Origin: Bacillota bacterium
Lineage (GTDB): Bacteria > Bacillota > Clostridia > Christensenellales > UMGS416
DNA length: 41,785 nucleotides
Assembly: GCA_016281935.1 (NCBI GenBank)
Contig: JAEEJN010000023.1
Location: 1 to 41,785 of the forward strand
Reading direction: 5' to 3'
The notes under the pieces are model-generated. The model was given only the letters and a program-made list of their open reading frames with translations. It was not told the DNA's origin and did no database searches. Shown here one piece after another: positions 9,165 through 32,997 of the stretch (the stretch's first letter is position 1; each line of letters begins with the position of its first letter). Both the position numbers and the translations under genes were made by a program.

Positions 9165-9228
9165 TTACTGTAATGAAGACGTTCTTGAACAGGCTCGATG
9201 ATTATTGCTTTATTGAGTTAACTCGGTA

Positions 9229-9257
9229 TTGACAGTTTCATTTCCATGTGCTATAAT
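9229..9257 (+). promoter_or_regulatory. Consensus promoter of the paaK leader and operon
   Basis: TTGACA (9229-9234) and TATAAT (9252-9257), both exact consensus, with a 17-base spacer. It is the strongest-looking promoter in the window, yet it drives a biosynthetic-type operon through a terminator, as expected for attenuation control. Confidence 0.92.
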
Positions 9258-9289
9258 GGCCGCAACATTCAAGGAAGGAGGCCTGTCAC

Positions 9290-9424
9290 ATGACACGAAA
9301 CGTCCCGGAATCTGCCGTGTCTTGCAGAATGGCCGGCAAAGCTGCTGTTCCCTGCGCTTTGCTTTCTTCCTATTTCCGCTTTAGCTTTAGCTCCTTACCC
9401 GTCTGTAAGAAGCGTTTTGCGTGA
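9290..9424 (+). CDS. Aromatic-rich leader peptide upstream of paaK
   Basis: 44-codon ORF starting ATG at 9290 with an excellent Shine-Dalgarno site (GGAAGGAGG, 8 bases upstream) and ending TGA at 9422-9424. Codons 28-33 read Tyr-Phe-Arg-Phe-Ser-Phe, a cluster of four aromatic residues in six codons, with another Phe at codon 43. It lies between a consensus promoter and a terminator, the classic layout of a transcription-attenuation leader peptide. No domain is recognisable and none is expected. Inference: ribosomes slow at the Phe/Tyr codons when charged tRNA is scarce and so favour readthrough into paaK. Confidence 0.7.
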   Translation: MTRNVPESAVSCRMAGKAAVPCALLSSYFRFSFSSLPVCKKRFA

Positions 9425-9480
9425 GCGGTCAGACAGTTCACCAGGCGGTTCTTCCGGACGGAAGGACCGCTTATTGTTTT
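9407..9480 (+). promoter_or_regulatory. Putative attenuator of paaK (terminator with competing pairings)
   Basis: Terminator stem 9445-9455 / 9460-9470 (11 pairs, one G-T) with loop GGAC, followed by TTATTGTTTT. Two upstream segments can compete. AAGAAGCG (9407-9414, Lys-Lys-Arg codons) pairs 7 of 8 with 9446-9453, the 5' arm. AGCGGTC (9424-9430, overlapping the stop codon) pairs perfectly with 9465-9471, the 3' arm. A ribosome at the stop codon would mask both; a ribosome held at codons 28-33 would leave both free. Folding energies were not computed. Confidence 0.65.
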
Positions 9481-9511
9481 GACTCCCCATATATAACAGA
9501 AAGGATACAAC

Positions 9512-10831
9512 ATGAGCGAAAGAAAGCATCTCATTTATGATCCTGCACGTGAATGCATGAGCCGGGATGAACTGACTGCCCTGCAGAACGCGCGTCTCAT
9601 CGAGACCGTGAAAAGGGAATATGAAAACGTACCCATGTATCGCTCCCGGATGGATGCCAAGGGCATACGTCCCGAAGATATCCATGGTGTAGAAGATCTG
9701 AAACATCTTCCTTTCATGGACAAGCGGGATCTGCGCGATTACTACCCCTTCGACCTTCTTGCCGTCCCTCAGAGTGAGATCGTCCGCATCCAGGGTTCTT
9801 CCGGCACCACCGGCAAGCCTATCGTATCCGGTTATACACGCAATGACGTAGATATCTGGAGTGAGATGATGGCCAGAACCCTGACTGCTGCCGGCTGCAC
9901 AAAGGAAGACAAAGTCCAGGTAGCCTACGGCCTCGGACTGTTCACAGGCGGTTTCGGAGCCTATCAGGGAGCAGACAGGATCGGGGCTATGGTCGTCCCC
10001 ATGTCCAGCGGCAACACACAGCGTCAGATCCTCATGATGAAGGATCTTGGCGTGACGCTCCTGTGCTGCACTCCTTCCTATGCCACCTATCTTGGCGAGA
10101 CCATCCGTGATATGGGTCTCGTACCCGGACGTGACATCAAGCTCAAGGCAGGCTGCTTCGGTGCCGAGCCCTGGACGGAAGAAATGCGCATCCATCTTGA
10201 AGAGCTGCTTGGGATCGATGCCTGCGATATCTACGGTCTGACAGAGATCGCCGGCCCCGGAGTAGCCTTCGCCTGTCTCGAGAAGGAAGGGATGCACGTC
10301 AACGAAGACCATGTGATCGCAGAAATCATCGATCCTGTGACGGAGCAGCCGCTGCCTTATGGTCAGAAGGGCGAACTTGTTTTCACAACCATCACCAAAA
10401 CCGGCATGCCCATGCTTCGCTACCGCACCCACGACATCTGCTATCTGACTGATAAGCCCTGCGACTGCGGCCGCACCTTCGCCCGCATGAGCCGCATCAC
10501 CGGCCGGACAGACGATATGCTGGTCATCCGCGGAGTGAACGTGTTCCCGAGCCAGATCGAAACTGTACTCGTGGCGACCCAAGGTGTCGCACCGCACTAT
10601 ATGCTTATCGTGGACCGCGTCAACAATTCCGACACGCTCGAAGTCCAGGTGGAAATGACTGAGGAAATGTTCTCCGACACCGTAAGCCACATCGAAGAAG
10701 TCCGCCGCCACATCACGGAGCAGATCCGTTCCGTCGTGGGCATCACGGCAAAAGTCAGTCTGATGGCGCCCAAGTCCATGCCCAGAAGCGAAGGCAAGGC
10801 CAAGCGCGTGATCGACAATCGCAAACTGTAA
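9512..10831 (+). CDS. paaK: Phenylacetate-CoA ligase (aryl-acid AMP-forming ligase)
   Basis: 439 residues, the usual PaaK length. The adenylate-forming P-loop QGSSGTTGKP is at about 94-103, CFGAEPW and YGLTEIAGPG follow, and the C-terminal domain starts near TGRTDDMLVIRGVNVFP. The family activates phenylacetate and related arylacetates with ATP and CoA. In anaerobes such ligases may either salvage arylacetates for aromatic amino acid synthesis (with indolepyruvate:ferredoxin oxidoreductase) or act in the reverse, energy-yielding direction. The oxidoreductase genes are not in this window. The gene is followed 19 bases later by the ACT protein and preceded by the leader-peptide attenuator, which argues for amino-acid-responsive control. 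Confidence 0.92.
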   Translation: MSERKHLIYDPARECMSRDELTALQNARLIETVKREYENVPMYRSRMDAKGIRPEDIHGVEDLKHLPFMDKRDLRDYYPFDLLAVPQSEIVRIQGSSGTTGKPIVSGYTRNDVDIWSEMMARTLTAAGCTKEDKVQVAYGLGLFTGGFGAYQGADRIGAMVVPMSSGNTQRQILMMKDLGVTLLCCTPSYATYLGETIRDMGLVPGRDIKLKAGCFGAEPWTEEMRIHLEELLGIDACDIYGLTEIAGPGVAFACLEKEGMHVNEDHVIAEIIDPVTEQPLPYGQKGELVFTTITKTGMPMLRYRTHDICYLTDKPCDCGRTFARMSRITGRTDDMLVIRGVNVFPSQIETVLVATQGVAPHYMLIVDRVNNSDTLEVQVEMTEEMFSDTVSHIEEVRRHITEQIRSVVGITAKVSLMAPKSMPRSEGKAKRVIDNRKL

Positions 10832-10850
10832 CGAGAAGGAGGCATCTACC

Positions 10851-11288
10851 ATGATCCAGCAGCTGTCTGTATTTCTTGAAAACAATCCCGGCACTCTGCG
10901 CGCCATGACCGAGATTCTCGGCATAGGCGGCGTTGACCTGCTCGCCCTGTCTCTGGCCGACACCCAGAGCTTCGGTATCGTTCGTCTGATCGTATCCTCT
11001 GAACAGATGTATACGGCCCTTGGTCTCCTGAAGGACAACGGCTATATCGCCAAAATGAATCATGTGATCTGTGCCTGCGTGCCCGATCGTCCGATGGGGC
11101 TGTCTGAGCTTCTGAGCGTCATCGAAAGCGCCGGCCTGTCCGTTGAGTACATGTACTCCTTCCTTCGGGCTTATGCTTCCGGTACTGCGCTCATGATTCT
11201 GCGTATGAACGACGGCAATCTTGCCGAATCCGTGTTCTCTGAAAAAGGGATCCGCATGCTGAGCCAGGAAGAGATCGATTCTCTCTAA
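10851..11288 (+). CDS. Tandem ACT domain protein
   Basis: 145 residues in two ACT-like halves: about 1-70 begins IQQLSVFLENNPGTLRAMTEIL, and 71-145 begins ICACVPDRPMGLSELLSVIESAGLSVEYMY. ACT domains bind amino acids and related ligands, usually at a dimer interface. Small two-ACT proteins commonly sit beside paaK in anaerobes. No enzymatic domain is present. A role as an aromatic-ligand sensor or regulator of PaaK is an inference. Its start has AAGGAGG upstream and a strong terminator follows. Confidence 0.88.
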   Translation: MIQQLSVFLENNPGTLRAMTEILGIGGVDLLALSLADTQSFGIVRLIVSSEQMYTALGLLKDNGYIAKMNHVICACVPDRPMGLSELLSVIESAGLSVEYMYSFLRAYASGTALMILRMNDGNLAESVFSEKGIRMLSQEEIDSL

Positions 11289-28834: not shown

Positions 28835-31318
28835 TTATGCAGTTTCAATGCTGGCAGCTTTCTGGAGATTGAGCTTCTCCACGGCTGCTTCGCGCATCTT
28901 ATACTTGAGAATCTTCCCGGCAGCGTTCGTCGGGAATTCGTCAACGAAGTCCACGTAGCGGGGCACTTTATGACGGGCCATGGAGGCAGCCACAAAGGCT
29001 TTCATCTCCTGCTCCGTCATGGTCTCGCCTTCCTTGAGAATGACACACGCCATGATTTCTTCACCCATTGCTTCATCGGGCACACCGATGACCTGCACGT
29101 CTGAAACCTTGGGATGAGTATAGATGAATTCTTCGATCTCTTTGGGGTAGATATTCTCACCGCCGCGGATGATCATGTCCTTCAGCCTTCCGGTGATCCG
29201 GTAGTTTCCTTCCTTGGTACGTGCAGCCAGGTCTCCCGTATGAAGCCAGCCGTCTTTATCGATCGCCGCGGCTGTGGCTCCGGGCATTTTATAGTAGCCT
29301 TTCATGATATTGTATCCACGGGCTACGAATTCTCCCGTCACTTCATCCGGCAGATCCTCTCCCGTTTCAGGATCGACGATCTTACACTCTACACCGGGCA
29401 GCGCCTTGCCGACCGTTGCCACGCGGACCTCCAGCGGGTCGTCCGTAGAGCTCATGGTGCATCCGGGTGAGGCTTCCGTCTGGCCGTACACGATCACGAT
29501 TTCTGTCATGTGCATCTTGTCAACCACATCCTGCATGACGGCGATCGGGCAAGGACTGCCCGCCATGATGCCTGTGCGCATATGGGAGAAGTCTGTATTC
29601 GGGAAATCGGGGTGCTCCAGCATGGCGATGAACATCGTCGGAACGCCGTGGAAAGCCGTGATCTTCTCTGAGTGGATGCAGGCCAGAGACGACTTAGCCG
29701 AGAAATACGGTAGCGGATAAATGGACGCTCCATGTGTCATGGATGCCGTCATGGCCAGGACCATGCCGAAGCAGTGGAACATGGGCACCTGGATCATCAT
29801 ACGGTCAGCCGTTGAAAGATCCATCCGGTCACCGATGCATTTCCCATTATTCACCACGTTATGATGCGTGAGCATGACGCCTTTGGGGAATCCGGTCGTA
29901 CCGGAGGTGTACTGCATATTGCAAACGTCCCCTGGCGTGACAGCCGCTGCGAGGCGAAGGACTTCTTCGAGAGGCGTCTCATGGGCACGGGAAAGAGCCG
30001 CTTCCCAGGTCATAGCGCCGGGCATGGAGAAATCCACCGTGATCACGTTCCGAAGGAACGGCAGACGGGCTGCATGGAGAGGTTTACCCGGGACCGTATC
30101 TGCCAGTTCAGGACAGAGTTCCTGAATGATGCCTTTGTAATCCGAATCCCTGCAGTTTTCGATCATGACGAGCGTATGAGTGTCGCTCTGACGCAGAAGA
30201 TACTCTGCCTCATGGATCTTGTAAGCTGTGTTCATCGTAACGAGGACTGCACCGATTTTCGTTGTGGCCCAGAAGGTGAGATACCACTGAGGCACGTTCG
30301 TTGCCCAGATCGTCACATGATGACCGGGTCTCACACCAAGTGCGACCAACGCTCTCGCAAACTCATCCACATCGTCTCTGAACTGAGCATAGCTTCGCGT
30401 ATAGTCCAGCGTCGTATAACGGATGGCAGTCTGATCGGGGAACGCTTCCACCATGGCATCAAGAACACGGGGGAAGGTCATGGGGATCAGTGAATCCTTT
30501 TCCCAGAGATAGCGTCCTGTATGGGCTCGGTTCCAGAAAACGTTCTCATCTCCGCCTGCCGTATCGGTATACGGTGTAAGGCATGCGGCAAAATGAGGAA
30601 GATAGACAGAAGGATTCGGGAGATCCGGAAGCCAGGCAGGATTCCAGACAAGCGACAGTGCACCGTCATAGTTCACAGAGCGCAGCGCATTGTAGATCTG
30701 ATCCATCGGCAGATCGCCTTCCATTGTCAGAGCGGGAGTGATTCCGTCTTTCGTTTTATGGAAGTCGGTATAATGGACATGCCGGACATATGCACCCAGA
30801 TGGGTGATTGTCTGTTCCGGCGTCTCACCGAACTGGACAGTCTCATCCAGACACCAGCAGGCACCGAGGTAGTCGCTGGCAAATGCATCGAGCGTCAGGC
30901 GAAGACGATCCGTGTCCGCAAAAGCTCCTCTGCTCTCCAGAAGGATGGCCGTCTTAAGACGTTCTGCCGTAGGCAGAAGACTCCGCAGCGCACGTGTCAG
31001 CATGTCGCCGGGTTCTGCCCGGAGCACGACACAGTCCACATTCAGGTCCTGAGCTGCAGTGATCAGTTCTGTCACCCTTCGCACGGAGTCCGGATCCCCC
31101 CAGTCAGGCGAAGCGGAAATGCACGGCACCGTCAGATGTCTCAGATACAGTTCTCTTCGCTGCGTATGAACGCGGGAAGGCTGCAGCGGATGATCATAGG
31201 GCAACGGTCTGGAAATATCGCAGTACAGTTCCACTGAGGTCACGCCGGTATCCTCTGCAAGCTGGAATGCTTCAGCCGGAAAAAGGGACTGATACTGGGT
31301 AGAAAAGGAAAGCTTCAC
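28835..31318 (-). CDS. TIM-barrel (sugar-isomerase-like) domain fused to AMP-forming acyl-CoA synthetase
   Basis: 827 residues in one frame. Residues 1 to about 255 resemble the xylose-isomerase-like/AP-endonuclease-2 barrel (KLSFSTQYQ, TSVELYCDIS, ILLESRG, HVHYTDF). The usual metal-binding Glu of the last strand (SLEW-type) reads SLVW, so its metal site may be incomplete. Residues about 265-827 are an acyl-CoA synthetase with QYTSGTTGFPKG (469-480), VYGQTEASPG, GWLHTGDLA, GRLKDMIIRGGENIYP and the catalytic Lys in AAGKILKYK. The acyl substrate is not readable; operon context (LeuA-like gene, ilvE, Leu T-box) suggests branched-chain acids. The start overlaps the preceding stop by four bases, so the two are coupled. 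Confidence 0.9.
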   Translation of the reverse strand: MKLSFSTQYQSLFPAEAFQLAEDTGVTSVELYCDISRPLPYDHPLQPSRVHTQRRELYLRHLTVPCISASPDWGDPDSVRRVTELITAAQDLNVDCVVLRAEPGDMLTRALRSLLPTAERLKTAILLESRGAFADTDRLRLTLDAFASDYLGACWCLDETVQFGETPEQTITHLGAYVRHVHYTDFHKTKDGITPALTMEGDLPMDQIYNALRSVNYDGALSLVWNPAWLPDLPNPSVYLPHFAACLTPYTDTAGGDENVFWNRAHTGRYLWEKDSLIPMTFPRVLDAMVEAFPDQTAIRYTTLDYTRSYAQFRDDVDEFARALVALGVRPGHHVTIWATNVPQWYLTFWATTKIGAVLVTMNTAYKIHEAEYLLRQSDTHTLVMIENCRDSDYKGIIQELCPELADTVPGKPLHAARLPFLRNVITVDFSMPGAMTWEAALSRAHETPLEEVLRLAAAVTPGDVCNMQYTSGTTGFPKGVMLTHHNVVNNGKCIGDRMDLSTADRMMIQVPMFHCFGMVLAMTASMTHGASIYPLPYFSAKSSLACIHSEKITAFHGVPTMFIAMLEHPDFPNTDFSHMRTGIMAGSPCPIAVMQDVVDKMHMTEIVIVYGQTEASPGCTMSSTDDPLEVRVATVGKALPGVECKIVDPETGEDLPDEVTGEFVARGYNIMKGYYKMPGATAAAIDKDGWLHTGDLAARTKEGNYRITGRLKDMIIRGGENIYPKEIEEFIYTHPKVSDVQVIGVPDEAMGEEIMACVILKEGETMTEQEMKAFVAASMARHKVPRYVDFVDEFPTNAAGKILKYKMREAAVEKLNLQKAASIETA

Positions 31319-32718
31319 TGGTTTTCCTCCTCATATACGATCTTGTTCAGGGCGTTCACATATGCGAGTATGGAAGCGCCGATGATATCGGTGGACAGTC
31401 CGCGGCCCGAATACAGGCGTCCCTGGGAACGCAGTTTGACAATCGCCGCTCCCATAGCTTCACGGCCTTCCGTCACTGACTGGATCTGGAAATCATCCAG
31501 TTCCAAGTGACGGCCCAGGATATGCTCGATGGCAAGGAACGCAGCGTCTATAGGGCCATCGCCAAGACAGACACCGGAAAGATTCACACCTCCGCGCGAC
31601 AGGACCACATGAGCCGTTGACGTGATGACATTGCCGGAATTCGTTACATAGGACACCAGACTGTAGGTCTGCGGAACCTGAAGGGACGCCGTAGCGATTA
31701 TGGCTTCCAGTTCACGAGTTCCGGTCTCTCCCTTCCCTTCCGCAGCGGCTTTCCATGCCTGGTATACGCGAATCTTATCCTCCTGAGACAGATCGTAGCC
31801 CAAGCGTTCCACTGCGGAAAGCACGGCTGCCATATCATCGTTCACGTTCAGGCGGATGTCTTCCCGTTCATCTGCTACACCCGCGTCAAAAGGAGAGCGG
31901 TCGTTTTTCGGTGCATTCAGAATCTGGAGGATCTGACGCATCGTGCGGTGGAGTTCCGTCGTCGTGAGACCTTTTTCCACGCCACAGTAATCCGCACGGC
32001 GCGTCATGGCCTCCGCAATCTTTTCCAGGACCACGGTATCCTGTCCTCTGGATTCCGTCTTCACTCCGTCCGCTCCGCGGCGTATGGCTTCCATCGCACA
32101 GGCGGTCGCCATGTGCAGTTCACCGGGGATCGCTACCATGAGTTCCGCTTCGGCAAGACCGGGAACGTCCTCACGGAGCGATGCGATCAGGTCACCGAAT
32201 TCGCCGGGCAGCATCATACCTGCGCTGTCGGCTACCGTGATTCTTGTCGCACCAGCCTCGATCGCTTCCTTCAGGGCAAGTCTGAGGAATTCAGGCTCGG
32301 CACGCGTCGCATCTTCAGCATAGAATTCCACGTTCGGGCAGAGAGTACGGCAGGAAGCGATCCTTTCCCGAAGGAAAGGAAGCATCGCTTCCGCCTTTTT
32401 GTGGTATGCATATTCCATCCTGACAGTCGAAAGCGGAAGCGCATACTGAAGGATCGCACGTTTTGCATTGGAGACACTCTCCCATGCAGCGCGAATCGTG
32501 TCCATGCTGTCGCCAACACGCACACAGACAGCCGCATGCTTCAGTTCGTGCGCAGCGGTTTTATTGAATACTGTCTCTTCCTTATCGCCCCGTACGCCGT
32601 CTACTTCCAGAGTATCGATCTCAAGACGGTCCAGGAGACGGGCAACCTCCAGCTTTTCCCGGAAGGAAAGAGCCGACTCCCTGCGAAGGGTCTCTTCTGA
32701 TACGATCAGTTTTTTCAT
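31315..32718 (-). CDS. LeuA-like protein: degenerate isopropylmalate-synthase barrel with LeuA regulatory domain
   Basis: 467 residues. The barrel follows 2-isopropylmalate synthase in order (EKLEVARLLDRLEIDTLEV, VEFYAEDATRAEPEF, EAIEAGATRITVADSAG, PGEFGDLI). The catalytic TLRDGEQ is replaced by TLRRESA (10-16), the metal-binding HCHNDLG by AIPGELH (196-202), and NGIGERAGN by ESRGQDTVV (222-230). The C-terminal part (about 340-467) keeps the LeuA dimer/leucine-binding region, including LGDGPIDAAFLAI. So the protein probably lacks synthase activity but may still bind leucine or an acyl-CoA; this is inference. It is the first gene after a Leu T-box leader, with AGGAG before its ATG. Confidence 0.85.
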   Translation of the reverse strand: MKKLIVSEETLRRESALSFREKLEVARLLDRLEIDTLEVDGVRGDKEETVFNKTAAHELKHAAVCVRVGDSMDTIRAAWESVSNAKRAILQYALPLSTVRMEYAYHKKAEAMLPFLRERIASCRTLCPNVEFYAEDATRAEPEFLRLALKEAIEAGATRITVADSAGMMLPGEFGDLIASLREDVPGLAEAELMVAIPGELHMATACAMEAIRRGADGVKTESRGQDTVVLEKIAEAMTRRADYCGVEKGLTTTELHRTMRQILQILNAPKNDRSPFDAGVADEREDIRLNVNDDMAAVLSAVERLGYDLSQEDKIRVYQAWKAAAEGKGETGTRELEAIIATASLQVPQTYSLVSYVTNSGNVITSTAHVVLSRGGVNLSGVCLGDGPIDAAFLAIEHILGRHLELDDFQIQSVTEGREAMGAAIVKLRSQGRLYSGRGLSTDIIGASILAYVNALNKIVYEEENQ

Positions 32719-32730
32719 GGGTCTTCTCCT

Positions 32731-32765
32731 AAAAAATATAACCCGGAAGCATCAATGCTTCCGGG
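32731..32765 (-). terminator. T-box terminator
   Basis: 11-base perfect stem with a 2-base apex, then TATATTTTTT on the minus strand; the regulated half of the T-box switch. Confidence 0.88.
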
Positions 32766-32997
32766 ACGAAATCAAATTCGCGGTACCACCCGAATTACCA
32801 TGCAGAGCACGGTCACTCATAGGACTCTGTCAAGTCCCGGCCGGATCACGGCGGCCTACCCGTGCAGCCATACTCGGTTCCGGCTGCCGGCTCCGGTGTG
32901 AGACCGATCCAATTCCCGCAGCCGGCTTTCACCCTGCGCCGGCTCTCTGCATACGGGTTGAAAAGGATCGTAATACCTTCAACGCCTTTTGGAAATT
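32731..32997 (-). promoter_or_regulatory. T-box leader, probably leucine-specific (CUC)
   Basis: The minus strand carries the T-box GGGTGGTACCGCG (around 32777-32789), the Stem I apical features AGAGAG and GGTGAAA (32931 region), and a terminator CCCGGAAGCAT / ATGCTTCCGGG (32742-32765) followed by a T-rich run. The stem above the specifier loop pairs GATCC with GGATC. In the loop GGTCTCACACC, the CTC at 32900-32902, followed by A, is the best specifier, giving Leu. Uncharged tRNA-Leu would stabilise the antiterminator and switch on the LeuA-like, ligase-fusion and ilvE genes. Other registers (GTC, TCA, CAC) cannot be fully excluded without folding. Confidence 0.92.

Follow-up and report, generated by a model that had tools for sequence, protein, structure and literature searches.

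A putative ribosome-mediated attenuator upstream of a paaK–ACT gene pair in an uncultured clostridial genome, and its family of leaders with interchangeable control codons

Results

Organisation of the paaK upstream region

The window, by which we mean the whole 41,785-nucleotide stretch of DNA analysed here (contig JAEEJN010000023.1, assembly GCA_016281935.1), derives from a Bacillota bacterium of the order Christensenellales. Within it, a leader region with its own promoter, beginning about 115 nt beyond the end of the glycerol kinase gene glpK, precedes the genes for a paaK-like aryl-acetate CoA ligase and for a protein with a pair of ACT domains (Table 1). An initial annotation had described an exact-consensus promoter, a 44-codon ORF with a very strong ribosome binding site, a Tyr-Phe-Arg-Phe-Ser-Phe run at codons 28–33 and a terminator before paaK, and all of these hold at the positions listed; promoter-like sites of any quality are expected 0.7 times in shuffled sequence. 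Two further hairpins, P1 inside the ORF and P2 at its stop codon, had been overlooked.

Table 1. Positions of the leader elements, of the genes that follow them and of the leuA-like locus in the window
Feature	Position	Strand	Evidence
Sigma-A type promoter, TTGACA-N17-TATAAT, TG before the −10 element	9229–9257	+	12/12 matches
Shine-Dalgarno sequence of the leader ORF, AAGGAGG, 8 nt before ATG	9275–9281	+	Sequence
Leader peptide ORF, 44 codons, start ATG, peptide MTRNVPESAVSCRMAGKAAVPCALLSSYFRFSFSSLPVCKKRFA	9290–9424	+	Sequence, relatives
Hairpin P1 within the ORF (GGCAAAGC-UGC...GCGCUUUGCU), then a U-rich stretch	9335–9363	+	Fold, covariation
Control codons Tyr-Phe-Arg-Phe-Ser-Phe, codons 28–33	9371–9388	+	Aligned with F/W/Y/L clusters of relatives
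Antiterminator strand A, CCCGTCTGTAAGAAGCG, encoding the end of the leader peptide	9398–9414	+	Complementary to 9446–9461; covariation
Leader stop codon	9422–9424	+	
Small hairpin P2 (UGAGC/GUUCA), stop codon in 5′ arm, closing the antiterminator loop	9422–9440	+	Sequence; relatives
Intrinsic terminator stem-loop, 13 pairs, U-rich tail at 9473–9479	9443–9472	+	Sequence; 63-sequence alignment
Strand B, pairing with strand A; comprises the terminator 5′ arm and loop	9446–9461	+	Loop-base covariation
paaK-like aryl-acetate CoA ligase, 439 aa	9512–10831	+	TIGR02155, 539 bits; AMP-binding
ACT-domain-pair protein (PF19571)	10851–11288	+	Domain match; ACT homologue in aroF–trpE operon
ORF with sugar-phosphate-isomerase-like and acyl-CoA ligase parts	28835–31318	−	
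leuA-like gene	31315–32718	−	
T-box preceding the leuA-like gene	32759–32991	−	

A family of related leaders

A search of bacterial genomes with the ligase protein returned 80 loci, 12 of which carry the same upstream region (11 complete, the remaining one being cut by a contig end). These 12 lie in metagenome-assembled genomes of uncultured Clostridia, mostly from ruminants, and their ligases are 84–89% identical to that of the window. Each complete copy possesses a promoter, Shine-Dalgarno sequence, start codon, ORF, stop codon and terminator (AGCGGUUCUUCCGGAUGGGAGGGCCGCUUUUUU), and the stop codon usually begins a small hairpin, UGAAyG...CGUUCA. The ORF, its cluster of aromatic codons and the terminator are all retained upstream of paaK–ACT, as would be expected if the initial reading of the region as a leader-peptide attenuator were right.

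Further copies were found in the genomes of the order and of relatives with a covariance model of the 3′ half, and the full model gave about 65 strong matches in one Christensenella-like family (308 genomes). The window copy, itself among the 22 training sequences, scores 93 bits (E 4e-19). Across the order, convincing matches occur only in the window's genome and in that one family, and within the class none of 391 genomes apart from that of the window yielded the element. A promoter matching at least 9 of the 12 consensus positions lies upstream of all 65 leaders examined, and an SD-like sequence precedes nearly all of them.

Downstream genes, assigned by tblastn and HMM, fall into a small number of types. 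Genes for a TrpX-like ABC transporter follow 51 copies, whose leaders are rich in Phe or Tyr; one of them reads FYYYYYYYYKK (eight Tyr in a row) and another RFYYYYYLYYY. The leaders of the 12 paaK–ACT copies have Phe with some Trp. An aroF–ACT–trpE operon follows two copies, from close relatives, with the leader FFFGWWSW, and one of these operons continues into a trpG-like ORF, as read from the sequence. A leuA-like gene follows a single copy, with the leader RFLLLGLAPG.

Several loci lie at the margins of the family. A divergent aromatic leader, FAYLYPYYF, with a hairpin and a terminator, precedes a DAHP-synthase-like gene (L268; G671:C47, ~48540–48757); it was left out of the counts and is probably a further branch of the regulon. 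At another locus (L272; G433:C90:57477–57613) a TrpX gene keeps the terminator and has no leader ORF, and one paaK gene (L036) has a plain promoter and no leader; both are apparent losses of the element. No element lies upstream of paralogous or more distant paaK genes (L044–L068 and others). Apart from L268 and L272, matches of models R1 and R2 below 38 bits, in other families and in the Christensenella-like family itself, were rejected as mostly ordinary terminators of other genes.

Two mutually exclusive folds

Strand A, CCCAUCCGAAAGAA in the relatives and CCCGUCUGUAAGAAGCG in the window, is complementary to strand B, which forms the 5′ arm and loop of the terminator. The antiterminator thus formed has a core of 9398–9405 with 9455–9461, extended by 9407–9414 with 9446–9453. 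The latter pairing had been proposed in the initial annotation and proves to be real; it belongs to an extended conserved helix (9399–9414/9446–9461), of which it is the distal part. A second pairing put forward there, 9424–9430 with 9465–9471, does not survive comparison: it forms 7 of 7 pairs in the window and 1–5 of 7 in relatives, it shows no covariation beyond shuffles, and one of its pairs fails to form in 10 of 11 sequences. We have rejected it as an antiterminator and regard it as a coincidence peculiar to the window.

Both the terminator and the antiterminator helix covary in relatives, a check that the earlier reading had called for. Over 63 distinct sequences the terminator stem is 98.6% paired, with both sides changed somewhere in 10 of its 13 pairs. 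For P1, P2 and the terminator together, 91.8% of cells are paired and double-change cells number 127, against 34 in shuffles; for the antiterminator 85.6% of pairs are formed and there are 40 double-change cells, against 20. The alignment used for the antiterminator count was fitted to P1, P2 and the terminator only, the antiterminator lying outside the model, and thus does not favour it. Covariation of both folds is seen as well in a 22-sequence alignment built without a model, and the signal is destroyed by sliding the register of either fold. Bases of the terminator loop, which the terminator itself does not need, change together with strand A; at one A:B pair A-U becomes G-C, and at another C-G becomes U-A by way of U-G. 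P2 is likewise kept in relatives, as UGAAyG..CGUUCA.

Folding with a masked ribosome points to a switch between these two structures. To mimic a stalled ribosome the RNA was masked to 15 nt past a control codon, with the polymerase just past strand B, and in every one of the 62 elements the predicted fold then contains the A:B helix. Masking a ribosome at the stop codon instead yields a predicted terminator in 59 of the 62. If the ribosome is stalled and the whole terminator has been transcribed, the minimum-energy fold is the antiterminator in 36 and the terminator in 25 of the 62, implying that the switch would often depend on the antiterminator forming before the 3′ arm of the terminator is made, and hence on timing. 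Each aromatic control codon of the window begins between 12 and 27 nt ahead of strand A. From the usual size of its footprint, a ribosome at the stop codon would cover most of strand A.

Coding tests of the leader ORF

The second half of the leader in relatives resembles AARFFxALRFWFFxFxFTxLPIRKK. In these second halves Phe, Tyr and Trp make up 27.8% of codons in frame, compared with 12–15% in the other two frames, and 503 aromatic codons are observed where shuffling gives 222 ± 12. Phe is written UUU in 79–89% of cases in the control region, as against 24% in the downstream genes. Selected solely for the strength of their Shine-Dalgarno sequences, the start codons of 59 of 66 copies share a single frame, and those of 61 do so if two 1-nt shifts are allowed for, even though they sit at about a dozen different distances from P1. 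The N-terminal part of the leader shows no purifying selection (24 synonymous and 87 other changes, close to the no-selection expectation). This absence is usual for leader peptides and would fit a leader whose sole requirement is to be translated; the evolution of this part gives no independent proof that the leader is translated. Next to its relatives, the window copy is poor in aromatic codons, with only five, and its P1 is weak. The initial annotation had proposed sensing of Phe (or Tyr). Tuning to aromatic amino acids is borne out, and the dominant codon in relatives is that for Phe, with Trp or Tyr as extras.

A hairpin inside the ORF

P1 lies directly before the control codons and does not overlap strand A. 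It covaries in relatives, with changes on both sides in 8 of 10 pairs, and across copies it has a median stability of −16.5 kcal/mol and is followed by 8 nt of which a median of 6 are U; the window P1 is a diverged, weaker copy with a weaker U tract. With its U-rich tail, P1 resembles a terminator or strong pause site, which a translating ribosome would have to open, and the UUU control codons may double as the U tract of such a first terminator or pause site. In trp-type attenuators the ribosome and polymerase are synchronised by a hairpin one strand of which also belongs to the antiterminator. Such a protector hairpin (the 1:2 pairing), which is typical of trp-type leaders rather than defining, was not found, and a pairing that sequesters strand A is confined to a few close relatives, in whose folds it appears.

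Discussion

We conclude that the region upstream of paaK–ACT is very probably a ribosome-mediated transcription attenuator with a leader peptide, as the initial annotation had suggested for a sensor of aromatic amino acids. This reading draws on the anatomy of the locus, its conservation, the covariation of both folds, the tracking of downstream genes by control codons and the masked-ribosome folding predictions. The region combines a short ORF with its own Shine-Dalgarno sequence between promoter and regulated gene, clustered control codons that match the amino acid which the downstream genes make or import, an intrinsic terminator before the regulated gene and, from covariation and masked folding, an antiterminator that excludes the terminator and would be blocked by a ribosome on the stop codon.

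In the mechanism that we propose, RNA polymerase would start at the promoter and transcribe the leader ORF. When charged Phe-tRNA (or Tyr-tRNA) is scarce, the ribosome would slow at codons 28–33 and leave strand A free to pair with strand B, with P2 closing the loop, so that the terminator is blocked and paaK–ACT is transcribed. When charged tRNA is ample, the ribosome would reach the stop codon and cover strand A and P2, and the terminator would end transcription. P1 probably pauses, or terminates, the polymerase until a translating ribosome opens it; this would couple polymerase to ribosome and make expression depend on translation of the leader. Readthrough would then be expected to respond to tRNA charging, as far as can be judged from sequence. 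A bolder proposal, which we put forward tentatively and with some doubt, is that the element is a two-stage attenuator in which P1 and its U tract form a genuine first terminator, opened by the ribosome and with the U tract written in the UUU sensing codons, on a scaffold that can be retargeted from Phe to Tyr, Trp or Leu and can stand in for a T-box on one and the same gene.

Could the ribosome instead be stalled by its own nascent peptide in response to a small molecule, as in TnaC or ErmCL? Such an arrest-peptide or drug-sensing leader could free the same antiterminator, and part of the peptide is indeed conserved (AARFxxALRFxFF, then LPI/PI). The conserved stretch, however, coincides with P1 and strand A, so that its conservation is explained through the RNA, and the control residues can be exchanged for one another (F, Y, W, L and even eight Tyr), following the amino acid of the downstream pathway. 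We therefore consider an arrest peptide very unlikely. The same tracking bears on a riboswitch or protein-binding RNA, in which the structure would sense a ligand and the ORF would be incidental. The strong conservation of the RNA structure would suit this alternative, and U-rich segments would yield Phe codons by chance, but the aromatic codons are enriched in the ORF frame only, start codon, Shine-Dalgarno sequence and frame persist across a dozen spacings, codon identity changes with the gene on an unchanged scaffold, and the region matches no Rfam family even at a relaxed threshold; a ligand-sensing RNA is in our view highly improbable. Of the in silico evidence, the strongest argument for ribosome-mediated attenuation over either a riboswitch or an arrest peptide is that the control codons follow the downstream gene, with the limitation that the Leu case is a single locus and the Trp case comes from two close relatives.

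Terminators are common, and the proximity of glpK raises the question whether the region is simply an ordinary promoter together with the terminator of the glycerol kinase gene, with an ORF that arose by chance. The promoter nevertheless precedes the terminator, the antiterminator covaries, and in other genomes the whole unit travels with paaK, trpX, aroF and leuA-like genes. The chance of this explanation is negligible, the comparative data having already refuted it.

How does the attenuator proposed here compare with known regulators? Like the pheA, trp, his and leu attenuators of Proteobacteria, it has a short ORF with clustered pathway codons, a terminator and an alternative antiterminator, and the position of the ribosome is the signal. 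It differs from them in the presence of P1 within the ORF, upstream of the control codons and with its own U tract; in the lack of a strand common to P1 and the antiterminator, in contrast to the 1:2/2:3/3:4 arrangement; and in the use of one scaffold for Phe, Tyr, Trp and Leu. No covariance model of the Rfam amino-acid leader families (Phe, Trp, Leu, His) matches the region, and no T-box, with its stem I, specifier and T-box sequence, is matched at 9200–9520 up to E = 1.

In Bacillota, amino acid genes are mostly under T-box control. Leader-peptide attenuation, which the initial annotation took to be less usual in this phylum, is indeed rarer but known, with Rli60 (ilv) in Listeria monocytogenes (PMC5864092), the ilv attenuator peptide of Staphylococcus aureus (PMC5794164) and predicted His leader peptides in bacilli (PMC2965389). 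These systems, unlike the family described here, concern branched-chain amino acids or His, single operon types and other hosts. T-boxes such as that on trpX of Streptococcus suis (PMC9382623), or the one elsewhere in the window, serve the same sorts of genes and also respond to tRNA charging, but they bind the tRNA directly. The regulator is thus of a known kind; what is new is the codon-interchangeable family, its modular exchange of codons and the hairpin within the ORF. In our searches of the open-access literature we found no paper on this element, and one clade of mostly ruminant-gut Clostridia appears to hold many leader-peptide attenuators that share one scaffold with exchangeable sensing codons and form a family apparently not described before. 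As a naturally occurring set of codon swaps, the family offers a test of attenuation theory and a means of predicting transporter substrates.

Synthesis of Phe from phenylacetate has long been proposed for rumen bacteria. PaaK-family ligases and IorAB can, in rumen bacteria and methanogens, carry out the reductive carboxylation by which phenylacetate is converted to phenylpyruvate and then Phe. The ligase of the window is best described as a putative PaaK-family aryl-CoA ligase, since its TIGR02155 score lies below the curated equivalog cut-off of 646.3 bits. Its ACT partner is 31% identical to the ACT protein of an aroF–trpE operon with the same attenuator, and the occurrence of homologous ACT-pair proteins in both operons would fit feedback sensing of an aromatic amino acid. 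Prephenate dehydratase (PF00800) was not found in 8 of the 12 leader–paaK genomes (G000, L031, L032, L033, L035, L038, L040 and L042), with the same search positive in 14 of 14 control genomes, which suggests that these eight do not make Phe by the usual route. A search for IorA, the enzyme that would be expected to partner the ligase, detected it in the genomes of 10 of the 11 relatives and not in the window's own genome, which is assembled to 88%; all are draft genomes of uncultured organisms, so that such absences are soft. The view of the initial annotation that the ligase serves synthesis and not breakdown is favoured, short of proof, by the failure to find the dehydratase in these eight genomes and by the aroF–trpE, leuA-like and transporter copies. 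We infer that PaaK–ACT may feed Phe synthesis from phenylacetate-type acids. The attenuator would tie PaaK–ACT to aromatic amino acid synthesis, in keeping with genomes that lack an identifiable prephenate dehydratase and would need phenylacetate as their source of Phe.

The distribution of the element bears on its origin. None of seven other searched members of the window's family has it, and the closest ligases in that family are at most 61% identical, compared with 84–89% for the other family, while the housekeeping gene PhoH of the window is about equally distant from both. The simplest reading is that the leader–paaK–ACT cassette (window 9228–11288; cf. L031–L043) was transferred into the window's lineage, as these comparisons would suggest; alternatively, the contig may be misbinned.

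The window also carries a leuA-like gene that is 52% identical to the attenuator-bearing leuA-like homologue (L251). In the window this gene follows a T-box, whose specifier is read from the Rfam alignment as CUC, for Leu. A T-box in one genome and a Leu-codon leader in the other thus place two RNA sensors for the same amino acid on the same type of gene. Directly after the leuA-like gene of the window is an ORF in which a sugar-phosphate-isomerase-like N-terminal part is fused to an AMP-dependent acyl-CoA ligase.
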